Source of the DNA: Clostridiales bacterium DTU083
GTDB lineage: Bacteria > Bacillota > Clostridia > Caldicoprobacterales > DTU083
NCBI GenBank assembly: GCA_001512915.1
Contig: LFTC01000066.1
Coordinates: 8,656 to 72,655, forward strand
Reading direction: 5' to 3'
Length of the DNA stretch: 64,000 bases
Positions within the stretch are counted from its first letter, which is position 1, and every line of letters begins with the position of its first letter. A model generated the notes under the pieces. The model searched no databases. It was not told the DNA's origin and saw only the letters and a list, made by a program, of their open reading frames with translations. The position numbers and the translations under genes are program-made. Shown here in pieces: positions 5,786 through 15,474 of the stretch.

Positions 5786-5812
5786 TTAGCACTCATTCGA
5801 GTCGAGTGCTAA
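5786..5812 (-). promoter_or_regulatory. CIRCE operator (HrcA binding site)
   Basis: An exact TTAGCACTC-N9-GAGTGCTAA inverted repeat sits between the groES promoter and the groES start. This is the full consensus for HrcA repression, so groESL should be heat-inducible through HrcA. hrcA itself is not in the window. Confidence 0.97.
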
Positions 5813-6077: not shown

Positions 6078-6971
6078 ATGGACATGCGTTACTCGAGAAT
6101 AAGTAAAAAAAAGAACAGGAATAAATATGCGATTTTTTTGCTGATTACTCTGATTGTTTTTTTGTTAATCTATATTCTTTCTGCAGGAACTTTAGGAAAG
6201 ATGGTAAGCAAGTTAATTTTACCAATTTTAAGCGATGATATGAATGATGCTTTAGATGAGGAGGTTGATGATACTCCTCTAACACTGTCTGATGAAACTG
6301 GTGAGTCTGAATCATCAAAAGCCGAATACGAAAAAATCACGGATAATTTGAAAATTAATCCTCTATCAATTTACACAATCCAAATGGGTGCTTTTACCGA
6401 TGAAAATAATGCAAAAGGTTTTTCTGAAGATTTAAAATCCAAGGGAGGAGCCGGATATGTTCATTTTGATGGATATTATCGGGTACTGGCGGTTGGATTT
6501 CAGTCAGAAGAGGATGCTGTAAAAGTCAGAGATGAATTGAAAGCCGACGGTATTGAGTCCAATATATATAAAATAGTTACAAAGGGAGCAGAAATGCAAA
6601 TAACAGCGGCGAAGGAGAATGTGGAATTAATCCGCTCCGCATTTGAATCTTGGGAGAAGGGATACAGCGGGATGGAGCAAATATTGTTCAGTCTGGATAC
6701 GGGAGCCGCCTCCGTGTCAGACACCATTACAAAAATTAGGGAGTTAAAAGATGAGATGGAACAGAAACAAAAAAAACTGGAGGAGATAAATGCCGGTCAG
6801 AAAAACATTATTCTAAATGGATTGACTGATTTATATAAGAACACTTGCATGTCGCTTGAAAATATAATTGATGTCGAATTTGACAATAAAGTAGCAATTT
6901 CTTCTGAAATAAAGTATACTTATATTGATCTTCTAATTCAGTATAGAAACTACTTGGAACATATTTCCTGA
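6078..6971 (+). CDS. Membrane-anchored SPOR-domain protein
   Basis: A 297-residue protein with a basic N-terminus, one membrane helix (about residues 18-38), an acidic linker, and a SPOR-type repeat at about 92-168 (IYTIQMGAF...YYRVLAVGF). SPOR domains bind denuded peptidoglycan glycans outside the membrane. The remainder (about 170-297) is helical with a coiled-coil stretch near 222-245. GAGGGAAGG precedes the ATG. It is the first gene of a tight run of six genes ending at 10257, only 10 bases before the DRTGG gene, so it may supply envelope input or may merely be co-located. Confidence 0.75.
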   Translation: MDMRYSRISKKKNRNKYAIFLLITLIVFLLIYILSAGTLGKMVSKLILPILSDDMNDALDEEVDDTPLTLSDETGESESSKAEYEKITDNLKINPLSIYTIQMGAFTDENNAKGFSEDLKSKGGAGYVHFDGYYRVLAVGFQSEEDAVKVRDELKADGIESNIYKIVTKGAEMQITAAKENVELIRSAFESWEKGYSGMEQILFSLDTGAASVSDTITKIRELKDEMEQKQKKLEEINAGQKNIILNGLTDLYKNTCMSLENIIDVEFDNKVAISSEIKYTYIDLLIQYRNYLEHIS

Positions 6972-6981
6972 GAGGTGTGTC

Positions 6982-7347
6982 ATGTCATTAACCCTCCACG
7001 AGATTAAAAAAATTCTTAATGCTCATGTTTTGCATGGAGAAAAGTTTTTGGATAAAACAGTTTATTCGGCATGCGGCTCAGACCTTATGAGTGATGTTCT
7101 GTCTTTTGTAAAAGAACAATCTTTACTTTTGACAGGTTTAACCAATCATCATGTAATTCGGACGGCAGAATTGCTGGATGTATCTGCCATTGTCTTTGTG
7201 CGAGGCAAAATTCCCGATTGTGAAATTATAGACATGGCTGCCGAACACTCAATTGTTTTGATGACTACTAAAGACACCTTGTTTACTGCTTGCGGCAAAT
7301 TATACAACGCAGGACTGTCCGGAGGAGAGGAAGCAAAGGATGCTTGA
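6982..7347 (+). CDS. DRTGG-domain protein, copy 1
   Basis: A 121-residue single-domain protein resembling the DRTGG domain (PF07085), a small alpha/beta domain otherwise found in HprK-, Pta- and CBS-linked proteins and thought to bind small ligands. The pattern LTGL..HHVIRTAELLDVSAIVFVRGK followed by A..H.I.LMTT is typical, although the DRTGG motif itself is degenerate. It overlaps the next gene by 8 bases, which suggests translational coupling. A paralogue lies on the other side of hydS. Confidence 0.7.
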   Translation: MSLTLHEIKKILNAHVLHGEKFLDKTVYSACGSDLMSDVLSFVKEQSLLLTGLTNHHVIRTAELLDVSAIVFVRGKIPDCEIIDMAAEHSIVLMTTKDTLFTACGKLYNAGLSGGEEAKDA

Positions 7348-7810
7348 AGAGATAAAGGCATTTAACAATGAACCGGATAATTCGCCTGAAGGTGTACTTA
7401 TAAGACATGTCTATTCCATAGAAGCTGAAGATTTTTCTTCTGCTGGCGAGGTCTCGCGAAAAATTAAGAATTTATTGAAACAATTGGGCGTTGATTCTGA
7501 ACTGGTTAGAAGAGCAGCCATAGCATGTTATGAGGCAGAGCTTAATCTGGTCATTCATTCATGGGGAGGCAAGCTGACATTTCAGGTTACGCCTAACTTA
7601 ATACAGATCATAACCGAAGATGAAGGCCCTGGCATTCCTGATATAGATCTTGCAATGAAGGAAGGCTATTCCACAGCATCCGAGCTGGCCAGAGAACTGG
7701 GTTTCGGTGCAGGTATGGGGCTGCCCAATATTAAGCGTTGCGCAGACACCGTAATTATTCAGTCTAAGGCTGGACAAGGTACCAAATTGATTATTAATTT
7801 TAATATATAG
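7340..7810 (+). CDS. GHKL ATPase, RsbW-like anti-sigma-factor type
   Basis: A 156-residue single HATPase domain. The N-box is YEAELNLVIHS (about residues 67-77), the G1 box DEGPGIPD and the G2 box GFGAGMGLPNIKR. This layout is that of serine kinase anti-sigma factors (RsbW/SpoIIAB) rather than of histidine kinases; no dimerisation/phospho-acceptor domain is present. No anti-sigma antagonist or sigma factor is encoded nearby, so its partner is unknown. It lies between a DRTGG gene and hydS, which suggests it could carry the output of the HydS sensor. Confidence 0.8.
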   Translation: MLEEIKAFNNEPDNSPEGVLIRHVYSIEAEDFSSAGEVSRKIKNLLKQLGVDSELVRRAAIACYEAELNLVIHSWGGKLTFQVTPNLIQIITEDEGPGIPDIDLAMKEGYSTASELARELGFGAGMGLPNIKRCADTVIIQSKAGQGTKLIINFNI

Positions 7811-7848
7811 AATAATGAATTGAATTAAATGATAGGCAGGGACCGGCT

Positions 7849-9177
7849 ATGGGAGAATATTATCATTCAGTAACGCTTGAAAAAAGCAAATGCATGGGAT
7901 GTACCAATTGCATTAAACGTTGTCCTACAGAAGCTATTCGCGTCAGGGATGGCAAAGCGAGGATTATAGATGAAAGGTGCATTGATTGCGGAGAATGCAT
8001 ACGTGTATGCCCTTATCATGCAAAGATTGCTGTTACTGACCCCTTGTCTATTCTGGACAATTACCGTTATAAAATTGCTTTGCCGGCACCTTCGCTTTTC
8101 GGCCAGTTTAAAAACCTGAGCAATTGTGAAAAGGTCATAGGTGCTTTAAAAAGTATAGGATTCGATTATGTATATGAAGTTGCTAAAGGAGCCGATATTG
8201 TTACGCAGCTTATCAGAGAGAAACTTGCTATACCGGATATTAATAAGCCGCTCATTTCATCAGCCTGTCCTGCCATTGTAAGACTGATTCAGGTTCGCTT
8301 TCCTAACTTACTGAATCACCTGGTAAGAATAGAATCTCCCATGGAAGTTGCCGCTCAAATGGCGAAGAAAGAGGCCAGTGAAAAGCTGGGCATACCTATT
8401 CAGGAAATTGGTGCATTTTTTATTACTCCTTGTGCTGCTAAGATGACCAGTATCCGCAATCCAATTGGTAATGAAACTTCACATGTGGACGGAGCAATCT
8501 CAATTTTGGATGTTTACGGTCCAATTACTTCTTATTTAAAAATACCTGATAATACAGAGAAGCTTCAAAAGGCAACAGGTGAAGGTCTCTACTGGGCTGT
8601 AACCGGGGGAGAAGGAAGAGCCATGGGAATCGAGAACTATCTGGCTGTCGATGGAATACACAATGTAATTCCTGTTCTAGAGGAAATTGAAAATAATAAG
8701 ATGTCTGATTTGGATTATTTCGAAGCTTTAGCCTGCGCAGGCGGATGCGTAGGCGGCCCTCTCACATTTGAAAATGGATATGTAGCCAAGAACAGGATTC
8801 GTCTTCTTGCAAAGAATATAAAAAATCCGGCTCCTTTAGATCCGGAAATTCAATATGTTAAGGAAAATATTCAATGGAAGCTCCAAAAAAATATTATAGA
8901 AAAACCAGTGATGAAACTTGATTCGGATATAGTAGCCGCTATTCAGAAAATGGAAACCATGGAAAGAATACATAGAAATCTGCCAGGATTGGATTGCGGA
9001 TCCTGCGGCTCTCCAAGCTGCAGGACCTTGGCTGAAGACATAGTACGCGGAAATGCATCAGAAATGGATTGCGTATTTAAATTAAGGGAGAAAGTTAAGG
9101 CTCTGGCAGAAGAAATGATAGAGTTATCGGAAAAAATACCGTCTGGCAGAAAGGGGCTGAAATCATATGAATCCTAA
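7849..9177 (+). CDS. hydS: Sensory-type [FeFe] hydrogenase-like protein (HydS)
   Basis: A 442-residue iron-sulfur protein. Two 4Fe-4S ferredoxin motifs (CMGCTNCIKRCP and CIDCGECIRVCP, residues 15-54) precede an H-cluster domain. L1 reads SSACPAI (Cys140), L2 TPCAAK (Cys195), and L3 ACAGGCVGGP (Cys296, Cys300). An extra CGSCGSPSC cluster motif of Rnf/FeS type lies near residues 383-391. Cys140 is preceded by Ala139, where catalytic enzymes carry the proton-transfer cysteine. The same change is known in group C sensory hydrogenases such as Thermotoga HydS. No PAS domain is attached. The neighbours are ATPase, DRTGG and PHP genes upstream of hydABC, so a redox or H2 sensor is inferred. Confidence 0.85.
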   Translation: MGEYYHSVTLEKSKCMGCTNCIKRCPTEAIRVRDGKARIIDERCIDCGECIRVCPYHAKIAVTDPLSILDNYRYKIALPAPSLFGQFKNLSNCEKVIGALKSIGFDYVYEVAKGADIVTQLIREKLAIPDINKPLISSACPAIVRLIQVRFPNLLNHLVRIESPMEVAAQMAKKEASEKLGIPIQEIGAFFITPCAAKMTSIRNPIGNETSHVDGAISILDVYGPITSYLKIPDNTEKLQKATGEGLYWAVTGGEGRAMGIENYLAVDGIHNVIPVLEEIENNKMSDLDYFEALACAGGCVGGPLTFENGYVAKNRIRLLAKNIKNPAPLDPEIQYVKENIQWKLQKNIIEKPVMKLDSDIVAAIQKMETMERIHRNLPGLDCGSCGSPSCRTLAEDIVRGNASEMDCVFKLREKVKALAEEMIELSEKIPSGRKGLKSYES

Positions 9178-9526
9178 AATAAATACTTTGAAGGAGATAA
9201 TTGAAAAATTGGATCTTAAGGTTATATCCGAAGGGTCTGACTTAAATCGGGCTGTGGAGTATGGTTGCTGTTGTGATTTACTCAGCTGGGTAATGGCTCA
9301 CGGAAAAAAAGATGCTGTATGGATAACTGTTCAGGCTCATATTAATGTTGTAGCTGTGGCATCTTTGCTGGAATTGGCAGGAGTCATTCTTGCTTCTGGA
9401 GTGACTATGGAAGAAAAAGCTATAGAAAAAGCCAGAGAAGAAGGCATAACTATCCTGTCATCGGAATTGGATGCATTTGAATTGGCAGGCAGGCTTTATG
9501 AAATGGGCATTGGCATGAAAAGTTAA
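9167..9526 (+). CDS. DRTGG-domain protein, copy 2
   Basis: A 119-residue single-domain protein sharing the layout of the copy at 6982 (AGVILASGV, then A.EEGITILSS, then AGRLYEMGI). The segment preceding it is cysteine-rich (YGCCCDLLSW), unlike copy 1. Its ATG lies inside the end of hydS with an 11-base overlap, so translation is probably coupled. Ligand and function are unknown. The pairing on both sides of hydS suggests a shared role. Confidence 0.7.
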   Translation: MNPKINTLKEIIEKLDLKVISEGSDLNRAVEYGCCCDLLSWVMAHGKKDAVWITVQAHINVVAVASLLELAGVILASGVTMEEKAIEKAREEGITILSSELDAFELAGRLYEMGIGMKS

Positions 9527-9555
9527 AACGTCTGGAGGCAGGTTGAAAAACAAAT

Positions 9556-10257
9556 ATGGAAGCCGCAATTGATCTTCATATTCATTCAGCTCTATCACCC
9601 TGCAGCGATGATGATATGACTCCTAATAATATTGTAAATATGGCACTGTTAAATGGATTGGACGCAATTGCTGTTACTGATCATAACAGCTGTGACAACG
9701 TGGAAGCGGTCATAAGAGCAGCAAAGGGCAAGCTGGTTGTAGTGCCGGGATTGGAGCTTCAAACCATAGAAGAAGTCCACCTATTAGCTTATTTTAGTGA
9801 TTTATCATATCTTTATTCGTTCAGCAGAGAAATGGAACAATATTATGATGGAATACCTAACGATCCAAATTTTTTCGGACATCAATGGATAATGAATGAG
9901 CGGGACGAAGTCATTGGACAAAAGCGCCAGTTCTTACTTAGTTCTTTAAAGCTTTCTTTTGAACAGGCTGTGGAATTGGTAAGAAAACACAAAGGTCTTC
10001 CTGTACCTGCGCATATTAATAAACCTTCTTACAGTGTATTATCACAATTGGGTTTTCTACCATCAAACTTAGGTCTGACATTGCTTGAAATTTCACAAAA
10101 TTCACCTATAAATTGTAACGGTTATCCGAATTGCAAGTTTATTATATCCTCGGATGCACACAGTCTGGGCCAAATACATGATAGAAAAATGATAATTGAA
10201 GTAAAAGAAATTACATTATATGGTATTTATGAGTGGTTATCTGAATGTTATATATAA
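9556..10257 (+). CDS. PHP-domain phosphoesterase
   Basis: A 233-residue metal-dependent PHP enzyme. Visible metal ligands: HIH at residues 8-10, DHN near 42-44, a glutamate in PGLELQT near 67, His in PAHINK near 154, and SDAH near 199-202. Such single-domain PHP proteins hydrolyse phosphoesters, including nucleotides or nucleoside 3',5'-bisphosphates; the substrate here is not predictable. A GGAGG site lies 18 bases upstream, an unusually long gap, but no in-frame alternative start is seen. It is the last gene of the sensor cassette; related cassettes next to clostridial and Thermotoga hydrogenases also carry a PHP gene. Confidence 0.85.
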   Translation: MEAAIDLHIHSALSPCSDDDMTPNNIVNMALLNGLDAIAVTDHNSCDNVEAVIRAAKGKLVVVPGLELQTIEEVHLLAYFSDLSYLYSFSREMEQYYDGIPNDPNFFGHQWIMNERDEVIGQKRQFLLSSLKLSFEQAVELVRKHKGLPVPAHINKPSYSVLSQLGFLPSNLGLTLLEISQNSPINCNGYPNCKFIISSDAHSLGQIHDRKMIIEVKEITLYGIYEWLSECYI

Positions 10258-10310: not shown

Positions 10311-10334
10311 TTTTTAACAAATATTTGTGAAAAA
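10311..10334 (+). promoter_or_regulatory. 24-bp palindrome upstream of the hydrogenase promoter
   Basis: TTTTTAACAAATATTTGTGAAAAA is a perfect inverted repeat apart from one A/G position. It ends one base before the -35 element of the hydC promoter. The half-sites TTAACAA and TTGTGAA look like Rex half-sites in the reversed order. It is a plausible operator. Confidence 0.5.
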
Positions 10335-10342
10335 GTTGACGA
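10325..10342 (+). promoter_or_regulatory. Rex-like operator over the hyd -35 element
   Basis: TTGTGAA-AAAG-TTGACGA has the 7-4-7 layout of Rex sites (TTGTGAA/TTGTTAA-N4-TTAACAA/TTCACAA). The left half is exact and the right half has two mismatches that create the -35 hexamer TTGACG. A similar sequence lies over the pta -35 element. Assignment to Rex is inference. Confidence 0.45.
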
Positions 10343-10364
10343 TTTTTATTGAAAGTCTTACAAT
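10336..10364 (+). promoter_or_regulatory. Sigma-A promoter of the hydrogenase operon
   Basis: TTGACG and TACAAT are spaced by exactly 17 bases. Transcription would start near 10371, so the ORF-track ATG at 10378 would be almost leaderless. The GTG at 10429 behind GGGAGGGAG is the better start. Confidence 0.8.
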
Positions 10365-10428
10365 GTTATGAGATAATATGATAGGTTTTATACTGCAATT
10401 TATATTCAGCAAAAGGGAGGGAGTATAC

Positions 10429-10917
10429 GTGTCAGCTTCTATTCTTCAAGAGAATAAGGAAAAATTCGAAGAGCTGCAACGTACAATTGACGAATACAAG
10501 GATAAGGAAGGCCCCTTGATGCCAATCATGCATAAGGCACAAGATCTTTTCGGGTATTTGCCAATTGAAGTACAGGAATATATAGCGGAGGCTTTGGATA
10601 TTCCAGTGACTGATATATACGGTGTAGCAACTTTTTATTCTCAATTTACTTTGAAACCTCAAGGCAAATATACAATCGGTGTATGTATGGGTACAGCTTG
10701 TTATGTAAAGGGAGCTCAAGCTGTATTGGATGAGTTAAAGAAAGAATTGAACATAGAAGCAGGAGATACCACTGAAGATTATCAATTCACCCTTGAGGCT
10801 ACCCGTTGCTTGGGTGCATGTGGTCTTGCGCCGGTAATTATGATAAATGACGATGTATATGGTCGTCTTGTACCGTCTGATATTAAAGGAATCATTGATA
10901 AATATAGAGATAAATAA
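10429..10917 (+). CDS. hydC: NADH-linked [FeFe] hydrogenase subunit HydC (NuoE-like)
   Basis: A 162-residue thioredoxin-like [2Fe-2S] subunit of the NuoE family. The four expected cysteines are in CMGTAC and, further on, CLGACG. The helical N-terminal half contains the conserved GYLP and YGVATFYSQF segments. The start is taken at GTG 10429, residue 18 of the listed ORF, because of the ribosome site 4 bases before it and the promoter position. First gene of the hyd operon; it passes electrons between HydB and the rest of the complex. Confidence 0.92.
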   Translation: MSASILQENKEKFEELQRTIDEYKDKEGPLMPIMHKAQDLFGYLPIEVQEYIAEALDIPVTDIYGVATFYSQFTLKPQGKYTIGVCMGTACYVKGAQAVLDELKKELNIEAGDTTEDYQFTLEATRCLGACGLAPVIMINDDVYGRLVPSDIKGIIDKYRDK

Positions 10918-10919
10918 AG

Positions 10920-11468
10920 ATGGAAGATATTTCACTTCATCTGCTGGATCTGGCTCAGAATTCGATTGCAGCCGAAGCTACTCTTGTTGAGATTTACATA
11001 AAGGAGATTACTGAAAAAGGCTGCATGTATTTGCGGATCCATGATAATGGAAAGGGCATGGATCAACAACAGTTGGATAAAATATCCGATCCTTTTTATA
11101 CTACGCGTACTTCACGCAAAGTCGGCCTGGGAGTACCATTATTCAAAGCCTCAGCCGAAGCTACTGGAGGCTATATGCGAATAAATTCAGCCCAAAATAA
11201 GGGTACAATTTTGGAGGCTTTGTTTTATACCAATCATATAGATTGCCTGCCTTTAGGTAAACCGGAAGAATCTTTGGCTGCCTTAATTTTTCTTAATTCG
11301 GAAGTCGATTTTGTTTACTGCCATGAGGTTAACAGCAGGCAATTCCGATTTGACACCCGTGAAGTACGTAAGATCTTAGGCGAAGTGAGCATCACAGAAC
11401 CGGAAGTTATAGACTGGATAAAAAAACATATAAAGAGCGGTCTTGATGAGTTATATGGAGGTGCATAG
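10920..11468 (+). CDS. Free-standing GHKL (histidine-kinase-type) ATPase in the hyd operon
   Basis: A 182-residue protein whose first about 105 residues are a HATPase domain: N-box LLDLAQNS, G1 DNGKGM, F-box DPFYTTR and G2 VGLGVPLFK. There is no recognisable DHp phospho-acceptor domain. About 75 extra residues form an unassigned C-terminal region with a hydrophobic segment (AALIFLNSEVDFVY). The gene begins 2 bases after hydC and ends 3 bases before the ferredoxin gene, so it is part of the hyd transcript. Genes like this recur at this position in clostridial hyd operons, as I recall, but a role is not established. Confidence 0.8.
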   Translation: MEDISLHLLDLAQNSIAAEATLVEIYIKEITEKGCMYLRIHDNGKGMDQQQLDKISDPFYTTRTSRKVGLGVPLFKASAEATGGYMRINSAQNKGTILEALFYTNHIDCLPLGKPEESLAALIFLNSEVDFVYCHEVNSRQFRFDTREVRKILGEVSITEPEVIDWIKKHIKSGLDELYGGA

Positions 11469-11471
11469 AAT

Positions 11472-11840
11472 ATGAAGTCTCTGAAGGAATTGGAAGAAAT
11501 TAAACAGAGAACATTGGATTCTGTTAATTTAAGAAAAGATAGAACAGGCGGAACCCGCATTGTGGTAGGAATGGCCACATGCGGAATAGCAGCTGGTGCT
11601 CGTCCGGTTCTGTTAGCCTTTCTAGAAGAAGTAAAAAAAAGAAATCTTGGTGATGTGACTGTTTCTCAGACCGGCTGTATCGGTGTGTGCCGCTTGGAAC
11701 CAATGGTTGAAGTTTACCGGCCTGGAGAAGAGAAGGTCACCTATGTGAAAATGACTCCTGAAAAGGTAAAAAGGATTGTTGCAGAACATATTGTAAACGG
11801 CCAGATTGTAACTGAGTATACAATTGGAGCCGCAGAGTAG
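11472..11840 (+). CDS. Thioredoxin-like [2Fe-2S] ferredoxin of the hyd operon
   Basis: A 122-residue protein: a helical N-terminus, then a thioredoxin-fold ferredoxin domain (about residues 29-116). Only three cysteines are visible, one in MATCGIAAGA and two in TGCIGVC; the matching domain at the N-terminus of HydB has four (CGGTGC, TGCFGLC). It either binds its cluster with another ligand or has three cysteine ligands only. The context indicates an electron carrier or an extra subunit of the hydrogenase. Confidence 0.8.
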   Translation: MKSLKELEEIKQRTLDSVNLRKDRTGGTRIVVGMATCGIAAGARPVLLAFLEEVKKRNLGDVTVSQTGCIGVCRLEPMVEVYRPGEEKVTYVKMTPEKVKRIVAEHIVNGQIVTEYTIGAAE

Positions 11841-11868
11841 TAACAGATTTGAACAAGGAGGGTTTCAA

Positions 11869-13665
11869 ATGGAATTTTTTCGTTCCCATGTTTTAATTTG
11901 CGGAGGAACAGGCTGCCATTCTTCCGGCTCTGCGGATGTAATGGAGACTTTCAAAACTGAGCTTGAAAAACATAATTTGGAGAAAGAAATCAAGCTGGTT
12001 CAGACCGGCTGTTTTGGGTTGTGTGCCGTTGGGCCTGTTGTAATTGTTTATCCGGAAGGAGCCTTTTATAGCAGAATAACAGCTGATGATGTACCAAGAA
12101 TTGTAACTGAACACTTGCTTAAAGGAAGAATTGTAACTGATCTGCTCTATCATGACAGTATTCATGAAGACGAAGTTATTAAATCTCTTAATGAAGTAGA
12201 GTTTTATAAAAAACAAAAGCGTATTGCTTTGCGCAACTGCGGTGTAATTGATCCGGAAAACATTGATGAGTATATTGCTTTTGATGGTTATAAAGCTTTA
12301 GGTAAAGTTCTGCTTGAGATGACGCCCGAGGAAACCATTGAAATTATTAAAGCTTCCGGGCTGAGAGGCAGAGGCGGTGCCGGATTCCCAACCGGGCTTA
12401 AATGGGAGTTTACTGCCAAAGCTGAAAGCGATAAAAAATATGTGTGTTGCAATGCGGATGAAGGCGATCCCGGAGCTTTTATGGACAGAAGTATTCTTGA
12501 AGGGGATCCCCACAGCGTTCTGGAAGCTATGACAATTGCCGGATACGCAGTAGGGGCAGACCAAGGATATATCTATGTAAGAGCGGAATATCCCATTGCA
12601 GTTAAACGGCTGACTATAGCAATAGGCCAGGCCAGAGAAGCGGGTTTGCTTGGCAAAAATATATTTGGAACGGATTTCAGCTTTGATATAGAATTAAGGC
12701 TGGGTGCAGGTGCGTTTGTTTGTGGTGAGGAAACTGCACTAATGGCTTCAATAGAAGGTTATAGAGGTGAACCAAGACCCAGGCCGCCTTTCCCGGCAGT
12801 TAAAGGTGTATTTGGCAAACCTACTTTATTGAATAACGTAGAAACTTATGCCAATATTCCGCAGATCATCCTTAATGGACCTGAATGGTTCCAAACCATA
12901 GGGACAGAAAAAAGCAAAGGAACCAAAGTATTCGCATTGGGCGGCAAAATCAACAATACCGGACTTGTCGAAGTACCCATGGGTACAACATTGAGGGAAA
13001 TTATTTATGAAGTTGGCGGCGGTATTCCAAATGGCAAAAAATTCAAAGCTGCACAAACAGGAGGTCCCTCAGGCGGATGTATACCTGTAGAGCATCTGGA
13101 TACACCCATAGACTATGATTCACTTGCAAAAGTTGGATCAATGATGGGATCCGGCGGCCTGATCGTAATGGATGAAGACAATTGCATGGTGGATATAGCC
13201 AGATTCTTCCTTGACTTTACTGTAGATGAATCTTGCGGAAAATGTCCTCCTTGCCGTATTGGAACAAAACGCATGCTTGAAATTCTGGATCGGATAGTTG
13301 AAGGTAAAGGAGAAGAGGGAGACATTGAAAAGCTGGAGGAGCTGGGAAAAACAATCAAGTCTGCATCACTCTGCGGTCTTGGACAAACTGCGCCCAATCC
13401 AGTTTTGAGCACCCTTCAATACTTCAGAGATGAATATGAGGCTCATATCCGGGATAAGAGATGTCCTGCCGGTGTATGCCAGAAATTGCTGCAAATAATT
13501 ATCCAGGCTGATCTATGCAAGGGATGCGGGCTTTGTGTCAAAGTATGTCCTGTGGATGCAATCTCTGGAGAACGCAGGAGTCCTCATACTATAGATCAAA
13601 GCAAGTGCATAAAGTGTGGTGCTTGCTTGGAGAAATGTCCCTTCAAGGCCATAGTGAAGGGCTAA
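11869..13665 (+). CDS. hydB: NADH-linked [FeFe] hydrogenase subunit HydB (NuoF-like)
   Basis: The 598-residue flavin subunit that oxidises or reduces NAD(H). Domains: an N-terminal thioredoxin-like [2Fe-2S] domain (about 1-90), the NuoF FMN/NADH core with GLRGRGGAGFPTG and GAGAFVCGEETAL, an SLBB domain, the 51K 4Fe-4S motif SCGKCPPCRIG, and two C-terminal 4Fe-4S motifs (CKGCGLCVKVCP, CIKCGACLEKCP). Start moved from 11824 to ATG 11869, which has AAGGAGGG 6 bases upstream. With HydA and HydC it should form the trimeric, possibly electron-bifurcating complex; bifurcation itself cannot be read from sequence. Confidence 0.95.
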   Translation: MEFFRSHVLICGGTGCHSSGSADVMETFKTELEKHNLEKEIKLVQTGCFGLCAVGPVVIVYPEGAFYSRITADDVPRIVTEHLLKGRIVTDLLYHDSIHEDEVIKSLNEVEFYKKQKRIALRNCGVIDPENIDEYIAFDGYKALGKVLLEMTPEETIEIIKASGLRGRGGAGFPTGLKWEFTAKAESDKKYVCCNADEGDPGAFMDRSILEGDPHSVLEAMTIAGYAVGADQGYIYVRAEYPIAVKRLTIAIGQAREAGLLGKNIFGTDFSFDIELRLGAGAFVCGEETALMASIEGYRGEPRPRPPFPAVKGVFGKPTLLNNVETYANIPQIILNGPEWFQTIGTEKSKGTKVFALGGKINNTGLVEVPMGTTLREIIYEVGGGIPNGKKFKAAQTGGPSGGCIPVEHLDTPIDYDSLAKVGSMMGSGGLIVMDEDNCMVDIARFFLDFTVDESCGKCPPCRIGTKRMLEILDRIVEGKGEEGDIEKLEELGKTIKSASLCGLGQTAPNPVLSTLQYFRDEYEAHIRDKRCPAGVCQKLLQIIIQADLCKGCGLCVKVCPVDAISGERRSPHTIDQSKCIKCGACLEKCPFKAIVKG

Positions 13666-13692
13666 AGTTTAACGAAAAGGGGAGTGACAAAT

Positions 13693-15432
13693 ATGGAAAT
13701 GGTAAAGTTAACCATAGATGGCATCCAGGTAGAGGTTCCCAAGGGAACAACGGTATTGGAAGCAGCCCGGTCCGCTAATATTCAGATACCTACCTTATGT
13801 TACTTGAAGGGAATAAATGAAATAGGAGCTTGCCGTATGTGCCTAGTAGAGGTTAAAGGGGCACGTAATTTGCAGGCTTCATGCGTATATCCTGTAGCAG
13901 ACGGGATGGAAGTCAGGACAAATACAAAAAAAGTCAGGGAAGCAAGAAAAGTCAATCTGGAATTAATTCTATCCAATCATGACCGCAAATGTCTGACCTG
14001 TGTAAGAAATGAAAATTGTGAGCTGCAGGCTCTGTCCAAGCAATTGGGTGTGGATGATATACGTTATGATGGAGAAAGGATAGATTATGCAGTTGATGAG
14101 CTGTCTCCATCAATTGTGCGTGATCCCAATAAGTGTATTCTGTGCAGACGATGTGTAGCTGCATGCAGAAATGTACAGGGCATTGGTGCTATCGGTGCAA
14201 CAGAAAGAGGATTCCGGACTACTATAGAGCCGGTTTTTGGAAAGTCTCTTTCTGAAGTTAACTGTGTTAATTGCGGGCAGTGCATTGAAGCATGTCCTGT
14301 AGGTGCATTAAGAGAAAAGGATGATACAGAAAGGGTTTGGGATGCAATTAACAATCCTGACCTGCATGTAATTGCACAGACAGCACCGGCTGTACGTGTT
14401 GCCCTGGGTGAAGAGTTTGGAATGCCCATAGGAACCCGTGTTACCGGGAAAATGGTTGCTGCATTGCGCAGACTAGGTTTTGATCGTGTGTTTGATACGG
14501 ACTTTGCTGCCGATCTTACCATAATGGAGGAAGGTACCGAGCTGCTGAACCGGCTGAAGAATAATGGTAAATTGCCGCTTATAACTTCCTGCAGCCCTGG
14601 CTGGATAAAATATTGCGAACATAATTATCCTGAGTTTTTAGATAATTTATCTACCTGTAAATCCCCTCATCAAATGATGGGAGCAGTGGTAAAGTCTTAT
14701 TATGCTGAAAAGCATAGTATAGACCCTGCCAAGATATTTGTGGTCTCAATAATGCCATGTACTGCCAAAAAGTTTGAGGCTAGAAGGCCTGAGCTGAGTT
14801 CAACAGGTTATCCGGATGTGGATGCAGTATTAACTACCAGAGAGCTGGCAAAGATGATAAAGCAGGCTGGTATCGATTTTGTTAAACTGGAAGATGAAGA
14901 GTTCGATCCAACCTTGGGAGATTCCACTGGCGCTGGGGTAATATTTGGCGCAACAGGCGGCGTCATGGAAGCTGCGTTGCGTACTGTGTATGAACTTGTT
15001 ACCGGAAAATCCATTGAGAACTTGGAAATTAATGCTGTTCGTGGTTTAGATGGTGTCAAAGAAGTTGAAGTGCCGCTGGGCGATATTACAATCAAGGCAG
15101 CGGTAGCCCATGGAACTGCCAATGCCAGAGCTTTGCTTGAAAAGGTAAAATCGGGAGAAAAAGAGTATCATTTTATCGAGGTAATGGGATGTCCTGGCGG
15201 TTGTGTCACCGGCGGCGGACAACCAATTGTACCTGCACAGGTTCAGATGGAAATTGATGTTGGAAAAGTACGAGCTGCAGCAATTTATGATGAAGACAGA
15301 TCACTGCCTATTCGAAAATCCCATGAGAATCCCTCAGTTAAGAAGGTTTACGAGGAATATCTGGGCGAACCCAATAGCCAAAAAGCCCATGAATTGCTTC
15401 ATACCCACTATACACCCAGAAGAAAGTTCTAA
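13693..15432 (+). CDS. hydA: [FeFe] hydrogenase catalytic subunit HydA
   Basis: A 579-residue M3-type catalytic subunit. Order: plant-type [2Fe-2S] domain (about 1-75), His-Cys 4Fe-4S motif (HDRKCLTCVRNENC), two 4Fe-4S motifs (CILCRRCVAAC, CVNCGQCIEACP), then the H-cluster domain with L1 TSCSPGW, L2 MPCTAKKFE and L3 GCPGGCVTGGGQP, and a small-subunit-like C-terminus. L1 is TSCSPGW rather than TSCCPGW, a form I recall for NAD(P)-linked subunits. It makes or uses H2 with ferredoxin/NADH through HydB and HydC. ATG 13693 has GGGGAG 8 bases upstream; GTG 13684 would overlap that site. Maturases HydEFG are not in the window. Confidence 0.97.
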   Translation: MEMVKLTIDGIQVEVPKGTTVLEAARSANIQIPTLCYLKGINEIGACRMCLVEVKGARNLQASCVYPVADGMEVRTNTKKVREARKVNLELILSNHDRKCLTCVRNENCELQALSKQLGVDDIRYDGERIDYAVDELSPSIVRDPNKCILCRRCVAACRNVQGIGAIGATERGFRTTIEPVFGKSLSEVNCVNCGQCIEACPVGALREKDDTERVWDAINNPDLHVIAQTAPAVRVALGEEFGMPIGTRVTGKMVAALRRLGFDRVFDTDFAADLTIMEEGTELLNRLKNNGKLPLITSCSPGWIKYCEHNYPEFLDNLSTCKSPHQMMGAVVKSYYAEKHSIDPAKIFVVSIMPCTAKKFEARRPELSSTGYPDVDAVLTTRELAKMIKQAGIDFVKLEDEEFDPTLGDSTGAGVIFGATGGVMEAALRTVYELVTGKSIENLEINAVRGLDGVKEVEVPLGDITIKAAVAHGTANARALLEKVKSGEKEYHFIEVMGCPGGCVTGGGQPIVPAQVQMEIDVGKVRAAAIYDEDRSLPIRKSHENPSVKKVYEEYLGEPNSQKAHELLHTHYTPRRKF

Positions 15433-15445
15433 ATTGAGTTAATAT

Positions 15446-15474
15446 AAGGACCGGTTTTATACCGGTTCTTTTTT
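15446..15474 (+). terminator. Rho-independent terminator of the hyd operon
   Basis: AAGGACCGG pairs with CCGGTTCTT (one G-T pair) around a 7-nt loop, running into TTTTTT. It lies 14 bases after the hydA stop. Confidence 0.85.

Follow-up and report, generated by a model that had tools for sequence, protein, structure and literature searches.

We analysed a 64,000-nucleotide stretch (hereafter the window) of contig LFTC01000066.1 from Clostridiales bacterium DTU083 (assembly GCA_001512915.1), in which a hydrogenase-like protein, HydS, is encoded within a compact gene cassette upstream of a bifurcating hydrogenase operon. The original prediction for this locus was that six closely packed genes, encoding a SPOR protein, a DRTGG protein (DRTGG1), an ATPase (HATP1), HydS, a second DRTGG protein (DRTGG2) and a PHP phosphoesterase, form a cassette that senses H2 or redox state, in which HydS may signal to the adjacent ATPase and from there to transcription. 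All six open reading frames (ORFs) are real and lie where that prediction placed them, on the forward strand and tightly spaced, with overlaps or gaps of no more than 38 bp (Table 1). Membership needed adjustment in two respects, as the SPOR gene is not part of the core and the unit also takes in HATP2, a second ATPase encoded within the hydrogenase operon. The reading that we favor, and hold to be probable though far from assured, is that HydS and HATP1 constitute one signalling unit, to which the DRTGG, PHP and HATP2 arms attach in the manner proposed below.

Table 1. Features of the cassette and of the adjoining hydrogenase operon, in window coordinates.
Feature	Position	Strand	Support
SPOR protein with N-terminal transmembrane segment; upstream neighbour, not core	6078..6971	+	Pfam SPOR 6e-12
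DRTGG1, stand-alone DRTGG domain; presumed regulatory partner of HATP1	6982..7347	+	Pfam DRTGG 1e-6
HATP1, SpoIIAB-like ATPase of the GHKL family, stand-alone; putative Ser kinase	7340..7810	+	HATPase_c 2e-7, HATPase_c_2 4e-7
HydS, group D (M2e-type) [FeFe] hydrogenase, 442 residues	7849..9177	+	Fe_hyd_lg_C 1e-34, FeS (PF04060) 3e-12, two Fer4
DRTGG2, second DRTGG protein	9167..9526	+	Pfam DRTGG 8e-8
PHP metallophosphoesterase	9556..10257	+	Pfam PHP 7e-8
Putative separate hydC promoter with weak Rex-like operator (10325-10342, 3 mismatches)	10325..10377	+	
hydC (NuoE-like)	10378..10917	+	ORF and Pfam
HATP2, second stand-alone GHKL ATPase, at the position of A. woodii HydE	10920..11468	+	
Small 2Fe-2S thioredoxin-like protein at the HydD position	11472..11840	+	Pfam
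hydB (NuoF-like, bifurcating hydrogenase)	11824..13665	+	Position and sequence
hydA, catalytic group A [FeFe] hydrogenase of the bifurcating complex	13684..15432	+	PF02906, 354 bits
Likely intrinsic terminator of the operon	15446..15470	+	

HydS consists of two [4Fe-4S] domains, an H-domain and a C-terminal [4Fe-4S] domain (PF04060). Its 16 cysteines divide into eight for the two N-terminal clusters, C140, C195, C296 and C300 for the H-cluster, and C383, C386, C391 and C408 for the C-terminal cluster, and all are at least 99% conserved among 267 homologues. A139 stands at the place of C299 in CpI, and this position is Ala in 81% of the 267 and otherwise Ser or other residues, with no proton-transfer Cys among the residue types counted. 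T193 stands at the place of M353 (Ser in TamHydS) and is Thr or Ser in 265 of the 267 homologues, while L294 replaces M497. The C-terminal motif, Cx2Cx4Cx16C (CGSCGSPSC...C, residues 383-408), is close to the end of the protein: the chain stops 34 residues past the last cluster Cys, and a Pfam search found neither a PAS nor a further domain after the cluster. In these respects (four H-cluster cysteines, Ala139, a CGSCGSPSC ending and no output domain) sequence and Pfam confirmed the earlier description of the protein.

The accompanying placement in group C was dropped, as PAS is absent and the residues are those of group D. The only characterized member of group D (M2e) is TamHydS of Thermoanaerobacter mathranii (PMC8163306, PMC13104023). 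Among its conserved residues are an Asp beside each of C379 and C404, Lys35 and Lys58 (named in PMC13104023), with which D382, D407, K36 and K59 of the window HydS align. Because the published residues and domain plan of group D are present and PAS is absent, HydS is, judged by sequence, a group D [FeFe] hydrogenase of the TamHydS type. Across 291 class-level genomes this clade matches at E<=1e-92 and other paralogues at E>=1e-46, a clear gap in score. The term “non-catalytic” is likewise unsupported: TamHydS also lacks the proton-transfer Cys and turns over H2 in both directions (PMC8163306), and the term should therefore be understood as “sensor type.” H2 alters the secondary structure of TamHydS (PMC13104023) but does not reduce its C-terminal cluster, which speaks against a simple electron hand-off by way of that cluster.

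Neighborhoods were examined in 271 HydS loci drawn from class, phylum and named genome records, of which 250 had at least 1.3 kb available upstream of HydS and 247 at least 1.4 kb downstream. In 246 of the 250 loci the gene upstream of HydS encodes an HATPase, and a DRTGG gene is found upstream in 218; on the downstream side, 222 of the 247 loci have a DRTGG gene and 220 a PHP gene. Many of the missing neighbors are contig or locus ends or unrecognized ORFs. The usual order is DRTGG-HATP1-HydS-DRTGG-PHP, it persists where hydABC is upstream, divergent or absent, and in three loci (L186, L202 and L212) it is reduced to a bare HATP1-HydS pair. Gene order is clearly conserved beyond close relatives, and the conservation of the cassette is far above chance.

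HydS and HATP1 also co-occur almost perfectly. Among the 291 class-level genomes, group D HydS (HydS-D) is present in 138, HATP1 in 139 and both in 136 (Fisher p = 4e-77). Two genomes have HydS-D without HATP1, in both cases with HydS at a contig end, and three have HATP1 without HydS-D, one of them with HATP1 at a contig end, so that only two exceptions are not contig ends. At the phylum level, HydS-D matches were obtained in 119 of 300 genomes. The pair also persists when unlinked. In genomes G211 and G269 (loci L241 and L242) DRTGG1-HATP1-DRTGG2-PHP-HATP2 lies directly upstream of rnfCDGEAB without HydS (with a SPOR gene in L241), and HydS is encoded on another contig or far off. In the same genomes, HydS is found upstream of nqrBCDEF-like genes with no recognized nqrA beside them (L139 and L140). 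Genome G226 (L243) keeps a divergent HATP1, DRTGG2 and PHP together with hydC-HATP2-Fdx-hydB; no hydA is adjacent, and rnf follows.

Several of these neighbors have become fused. In all 17 genomes of one order within the same phylum (6 genera, 2 families), a single match spans HATP1 and HydS. Twelve of the 17 ORFs were examined; all are unbroken and 601-636 residues long, with ATPase boxes and cluster motifs intact, and each is followed by a DRTGG protein. L256 and L259 carry DRTGG2 joined to the HydS C-terminus, DRTGG1 and HATP1 are fused in six loci, and PHP is fused to HATP2 in L296. In L255 (positions 624-1472) a CBS domain takes the place of DRTGG1, fused N-terminally to the SpoIIAB-like ATPase that precedes HydS. 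In L174, L198, L190, L099 and comparable loci the HATPase ORF is long only in appearance, owing to an out-of-frame N-terminal extension, and these cases were rejected as fusions. The fusions provide strong evidence, read from genomes, for a physical or functional partnership. Signalling from HydS to the adjacent ATPase is thus well supported by genomics, through adjacency, near-perfect co-occurrence and order-wide fusion, which suggests that HATP1 is the likely first recipient of the HydS signal.

Two further arrangements concern related hydrogenase-like proteins. In L257 and L272 the HATP1-HydS pair is followed by a second such protein with a C-terminal cluster of the CGSCGYNSC/CRACGYRSC type (group C-like), possibly making tandem sensors. 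L295 (11545-13767, reverse strand) encodes a 741-residue protein that combines ferredoxin, H-domain and FeS modules with an AAA domain of the sigma-54 activator type and a Fis-type helix-turn-helix. This hydrogenase-like sensor, fused directly to a transcription activator, lies about 1.4 kb upstream of a DRTGG1-HATP1/HydS cassette.

The closest solved relative of HATP1 is SpoIIAB, both by sequence (2e-12) and by fold (Foldseek 1e-11), followed by RsbW (1e-4). This corrects the earlier label “RsbW-like.” At 49.3 bits against the SpoIIAB equivalog TIGR01925 (cut-off 135) HATP1 falls below that model, and with its own FGAGMGLPN box it forms a distinct subfamily. The Bergerat ATP site is intact: E65, N69, D94, G98 and G123-G127 are approximately 100% conserved in 260 sequences, the catalytic Glu65 and Asn69 are invariant, and H73 and the GFGAGMG box are conserved to about the same degree. 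Pfam found only HATPase_c in HATP1 and HATP2, with no HisKA/DHp domain carrying a phospho-acceptor His in either. We take HATP1 for an ATP-driven switch and putative Ser/Thr kinase.

Both DRTGG proteins contain a conserved DxxS, with D34 and S37 of DRTGG1 conserved at 99-100% (232 sequences) and D37, S40 and T54 of DRTGG2 invariant (240 sequences), which makes this motif a candidate phospho-acceptor. Profile and fold searches matched the DRTGG domain to 3l2b, a CBS-DRTGG pyrophosphatase. Because of this match, and because a CBS domain swaps in for DRTGG1 in L255, we infer a nucleotide-linked regulatory role for DRTGG1. The metal ligands of PHP (D6, H8, H10, D42, H43, E67, H75, H153, D200 and H202) are 99-100% conserved in 238 sequences, and HATP2 is tied to the HydS cassette by its fusion to PHP in L296.

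Hypothetically, signalling through this cassette would proceed as follows. HydS would read the H2 or redox level through its H-cluster, with H2 as the presumed signal, and a conformational change would pass from HydS to HATP1, the presumed direction. HATP1 would act as an ATP-driven switch, the state of which may also be set by DRTGG1, or by the CBS domain in one lineage, while DRTGG2 would bind HydS. PHP and HATP2/HydE would make up the downstream arm, next to the bifurcating hydrogenase in most cases and next to Rnf in two genomes. We infer that there is a phospho-target, that PHP has a role in the pathway, and that the final effect falls on the amount or activity of HydABC. Structure prediction lends this some support. 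AlphaFold2 modelled the natural HATP1-HydS fusion, from an alignment of 61 loci with both genes in frame and the stop read through as Gly, at a mean predicted local distance difference test (pLDDT) of 88 and a predicted template modelling score (pTM) of 0.77, against a rough estimate of 0.68 for independent domains; the mutual placement of HATP1 and HydS in the model appears moderately, not strongly, determined.

A number of observations weigh against this proposal. The coevolution signal between HATP1 and HydS is weak. In a mean-field direct coupling analysis (DCA) of 235 HATP1/HydS pairs, the top inter-protein couplings reached 1.40, versus 1.01-1.14 in five shuffles, which leave phylogeny in, and they gave no robust location for an interface: nine of the 25 top couplings fall in the C-terminal region of HydS (p = 0.013), an enrichment that is not significant at the top 50 or 100. 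The DRTGG1-HATP1 fusion was predicted as two confident domains with a disordered linker and no fixed arrangement (pTM 0.54). Genomes G226 and G196 retain a divergent HATP1 without HydS-D, which was not found in the genome of G226. Genes for a STAS protein, a sigma factor, a PP2C or a DNA-binding protein are absent from the conserved cassette.

The last step of the original prediction, from the cassette “to transcription,” needs correction, as the cassette has no DNA-binding or receiver domain and hydC has a putative promoter region of its own. The gap between PHP and hydC contains promoter-like sequence. In the window the ATG of the hydC ORF directly follows the putative -10, and comparison with L006 and L007 places the true start probably at a GTG near 10429. 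No strong terminator-like site was seen on the forward strand before the end of hydA, the one site found being weak and inside hydB. Rex-like operators are strongly enriched in PHP-hydC gaps, 32 of 107 having one with no more than 2 mismatches compared with 1.2 in shuffles, which makes control of hydABC by Rex plausible in many cassette-bearing bacteria; the window's own site, with 3 mismatches, is not significant taken alone. With no gene for a DNA-binding output in the cassette, a putative separate promoter region for hydC and Rex-like sites enriched in relatives, control of hydABC transcription by HydS is unproven; such a link may exist but is not needed.

The strongest alternative takes its starting point here. 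It holds that HydS is a redox or H2 input and that HATP1, DRTGG, PHP and HATP2 act post-translationally on HydABC or Rnf, by way of their assembly, the gating of their activity or their turnover, and that Rex, responding to NADH/NAD+, sets the transcription of hydCEDBA. HydE of A. woodii has been suggested to function in assembly or signalling (PMC3315566). The enrichment of Rex-like operators, the lack of a DNA-binding protein in the cassette, and its position, which is beside rnf in G211 and G269 and in G226 beside a hydCEDB set that has no hydA next to it, all fit such a role. However, good Rex-like sites occur at only part of the loci, and that of the window is a poor one. SpoIIAB-type ATPases are switch kinases and anti-sigma factors and are not known to be assembly factors, which also counts against this alternative. 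We regard it as possible but on the whole unlikely.

The kinship of HATP1 to SpoIIAB and RsbW, its closest relatives, raises the possibility that it is an anti-sigma or partner-switch kinase whose target, a sigma factor or a STAS protein, is encoded elsewhere. HydS would then link H2 or redox state to sporulation or a general stress regulon, and hydABC would not be its main object. The source genome does encode three STAS and three SpoIIE/PP2C-type proteins elsewhere, but at least one of these STAS genes adjoins its own HATPase (C11), HATP1 scores well under the SpoIIAB equivalog cut-off, and neither the conserved neighborhood nor the minimal HATP1-HydS pairs include a STAS or sigma gene, and we consider this explanation improbable. 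Information could also flow in the opposite direction, from ATP or nucleotide level to HydS, if HydS were primarily a low-activity redox enzyme (e.g. a ferredoxin/H2 valve) regulated by the ATPase and DRTGG. The conservation of every cluster ligand, the turnover by TamHydS in both directions (PMC8163306) and the nucleotide-linked nature of DRTGG and CBS domains (3l2b and the CBS swap) are consistent with an enzyme. However, the proton-transfer Cys is absent across the survey, as in other putative sensors, H2 induces a structural change in TamHydS, and group C relatives are fused to or lie beside output modules (L295, and R. albus as cited in PMC5707799), so that we give this explanation little credence. 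That the association is a genomic coincidence of a frequently inherited operon, its order preserved by vertical inheritance and hitch-hiking with hydABC, is scarcely credible, as the order holds where hydABC has moved, inverted or disappeared, co-occurrence persists in unlinked genes, and repeated fusions of different neighbors refute it in practice.

Returning to HydS and HATP1 as one signalling unit, a much broader generalization can be framed: group D hydrogenases may be the H2 or redox input of an undescribed partner-switching system. The hydrogenase would have a SpoIIAB-type kinase as its partner, separate or fused, DRTGG with its invariant DxxS would replace STAS, and PHP would serve as the reversing phosphatase; many anaerobic Bacillota would use the system to tune their bifurcating hydrogenase and Rnf. 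We offer this as speculation and think it rather doubtful as a whole. The signalling unit itself, if confirmed, would account for the way in which many fermenters, acetogens and bacteria of the rumen or gut match their H2 output to the H2 around them, a matter that bears on biohydrogen, ethanol yield and enteric methane.

Counting the SPOR protein as a cassette member is not borne out, as no more than 26 of the first 142 loci were seen to have it; it is limited to some lineages, though it often heads the cassette in the window's own order. Between the SPOR gene and the divergent groES-groEL, a controlling inverted repeat of chaperone expression (CIRCE) element, TTAGCACTC-N9-GAGTGCTAA, lies before groES-groEL at 5786-5812. 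The source genome is 1.9 Mb and carries four [FeFe] hydrogenase genes, and the nearest named relatives of the window are Bacillota metagenome genomes.

The sensor family itself is known; the DRTGG-HATP1-HydS-DRTGG-PHP wiring, its breadth and its fusions appear undescribed in the literature searched, outside of which most subscription papers fell. Group C HydS proteins (T. maritima, R. albus and HfsB of T. saccharolyticum) share with the window HydS the status of putative H2 sensor, altered H-cluster surroundings, a C-terminal [4Fe-4S] cluster and a link to hydrogenase operons. They differ in carrying a PAS domain and in the Ser/Thr kinase or phosphatase genes found close to them, whereas the window HydS has no PAS and is partnered by a SpoIIAB-like GHKL ATPase. 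That ATPase has in common with SpoIIAB and RsbW the stand-alone GHKL fold, the N, G1 and G2 boxes and the catalytic Glu and Asn, yet differs in its FGAGMGLPN box, in having HydS and DRTGG/CBS as partners, and in lacking a STAS or sigma partner gene. The regulatory [NiFe] hydrogenase RH with HoxJ (PMC5707799) is likewise a sensor hydrogenase coupled to a GHKL-type kinase, although its metal centre and fold are different and HoxJ, a histidine protein kinase, is paired with a response regulator; HATP1 has no His-acceptor domain, and its cassette no receiver partner.

HATP2 resembles HydE of A. woodii in lying between hydC and hydD (the window order being hydC-E-D-B-A) and in its likeness to histidine kinase ATPases (PMC3315566). 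HydE resembles the ATP-binding part of histidine kinases and is not in the active enzyme (PMC3315566); unlike HydE as described, HATP2 is linked to PHP by the fusion in L296. The closest parallel is TamHydS, which has the same two [4Fe-4S] clusters, H-domain and Cx2Cx4Cx16C motif, no PAS, no C299 and a Leu at M497. Its context is also the same, upstream of a bifurcating hydrogenase and flanked by a histidine kinase-like ATPase (PMC8163306). The TamHydS publications mention just this ATPase and an “AraC” gene as flanking, whereas the downstream neighbor here is DRTGG2 in 222 of 247 loci. Land et al. ask how the TamHydS signal is passed on and note the flanking ATPase (PMC8163306). To this question, which the TamHydS group left open for a PAS-less group D hydrogenase, the genomic evidence presented here responds by naming the SpoIIAB-like ATPase as the partner, and the natural HATP1-HydS fusion offers a single-chain version of the two that is available for expression.

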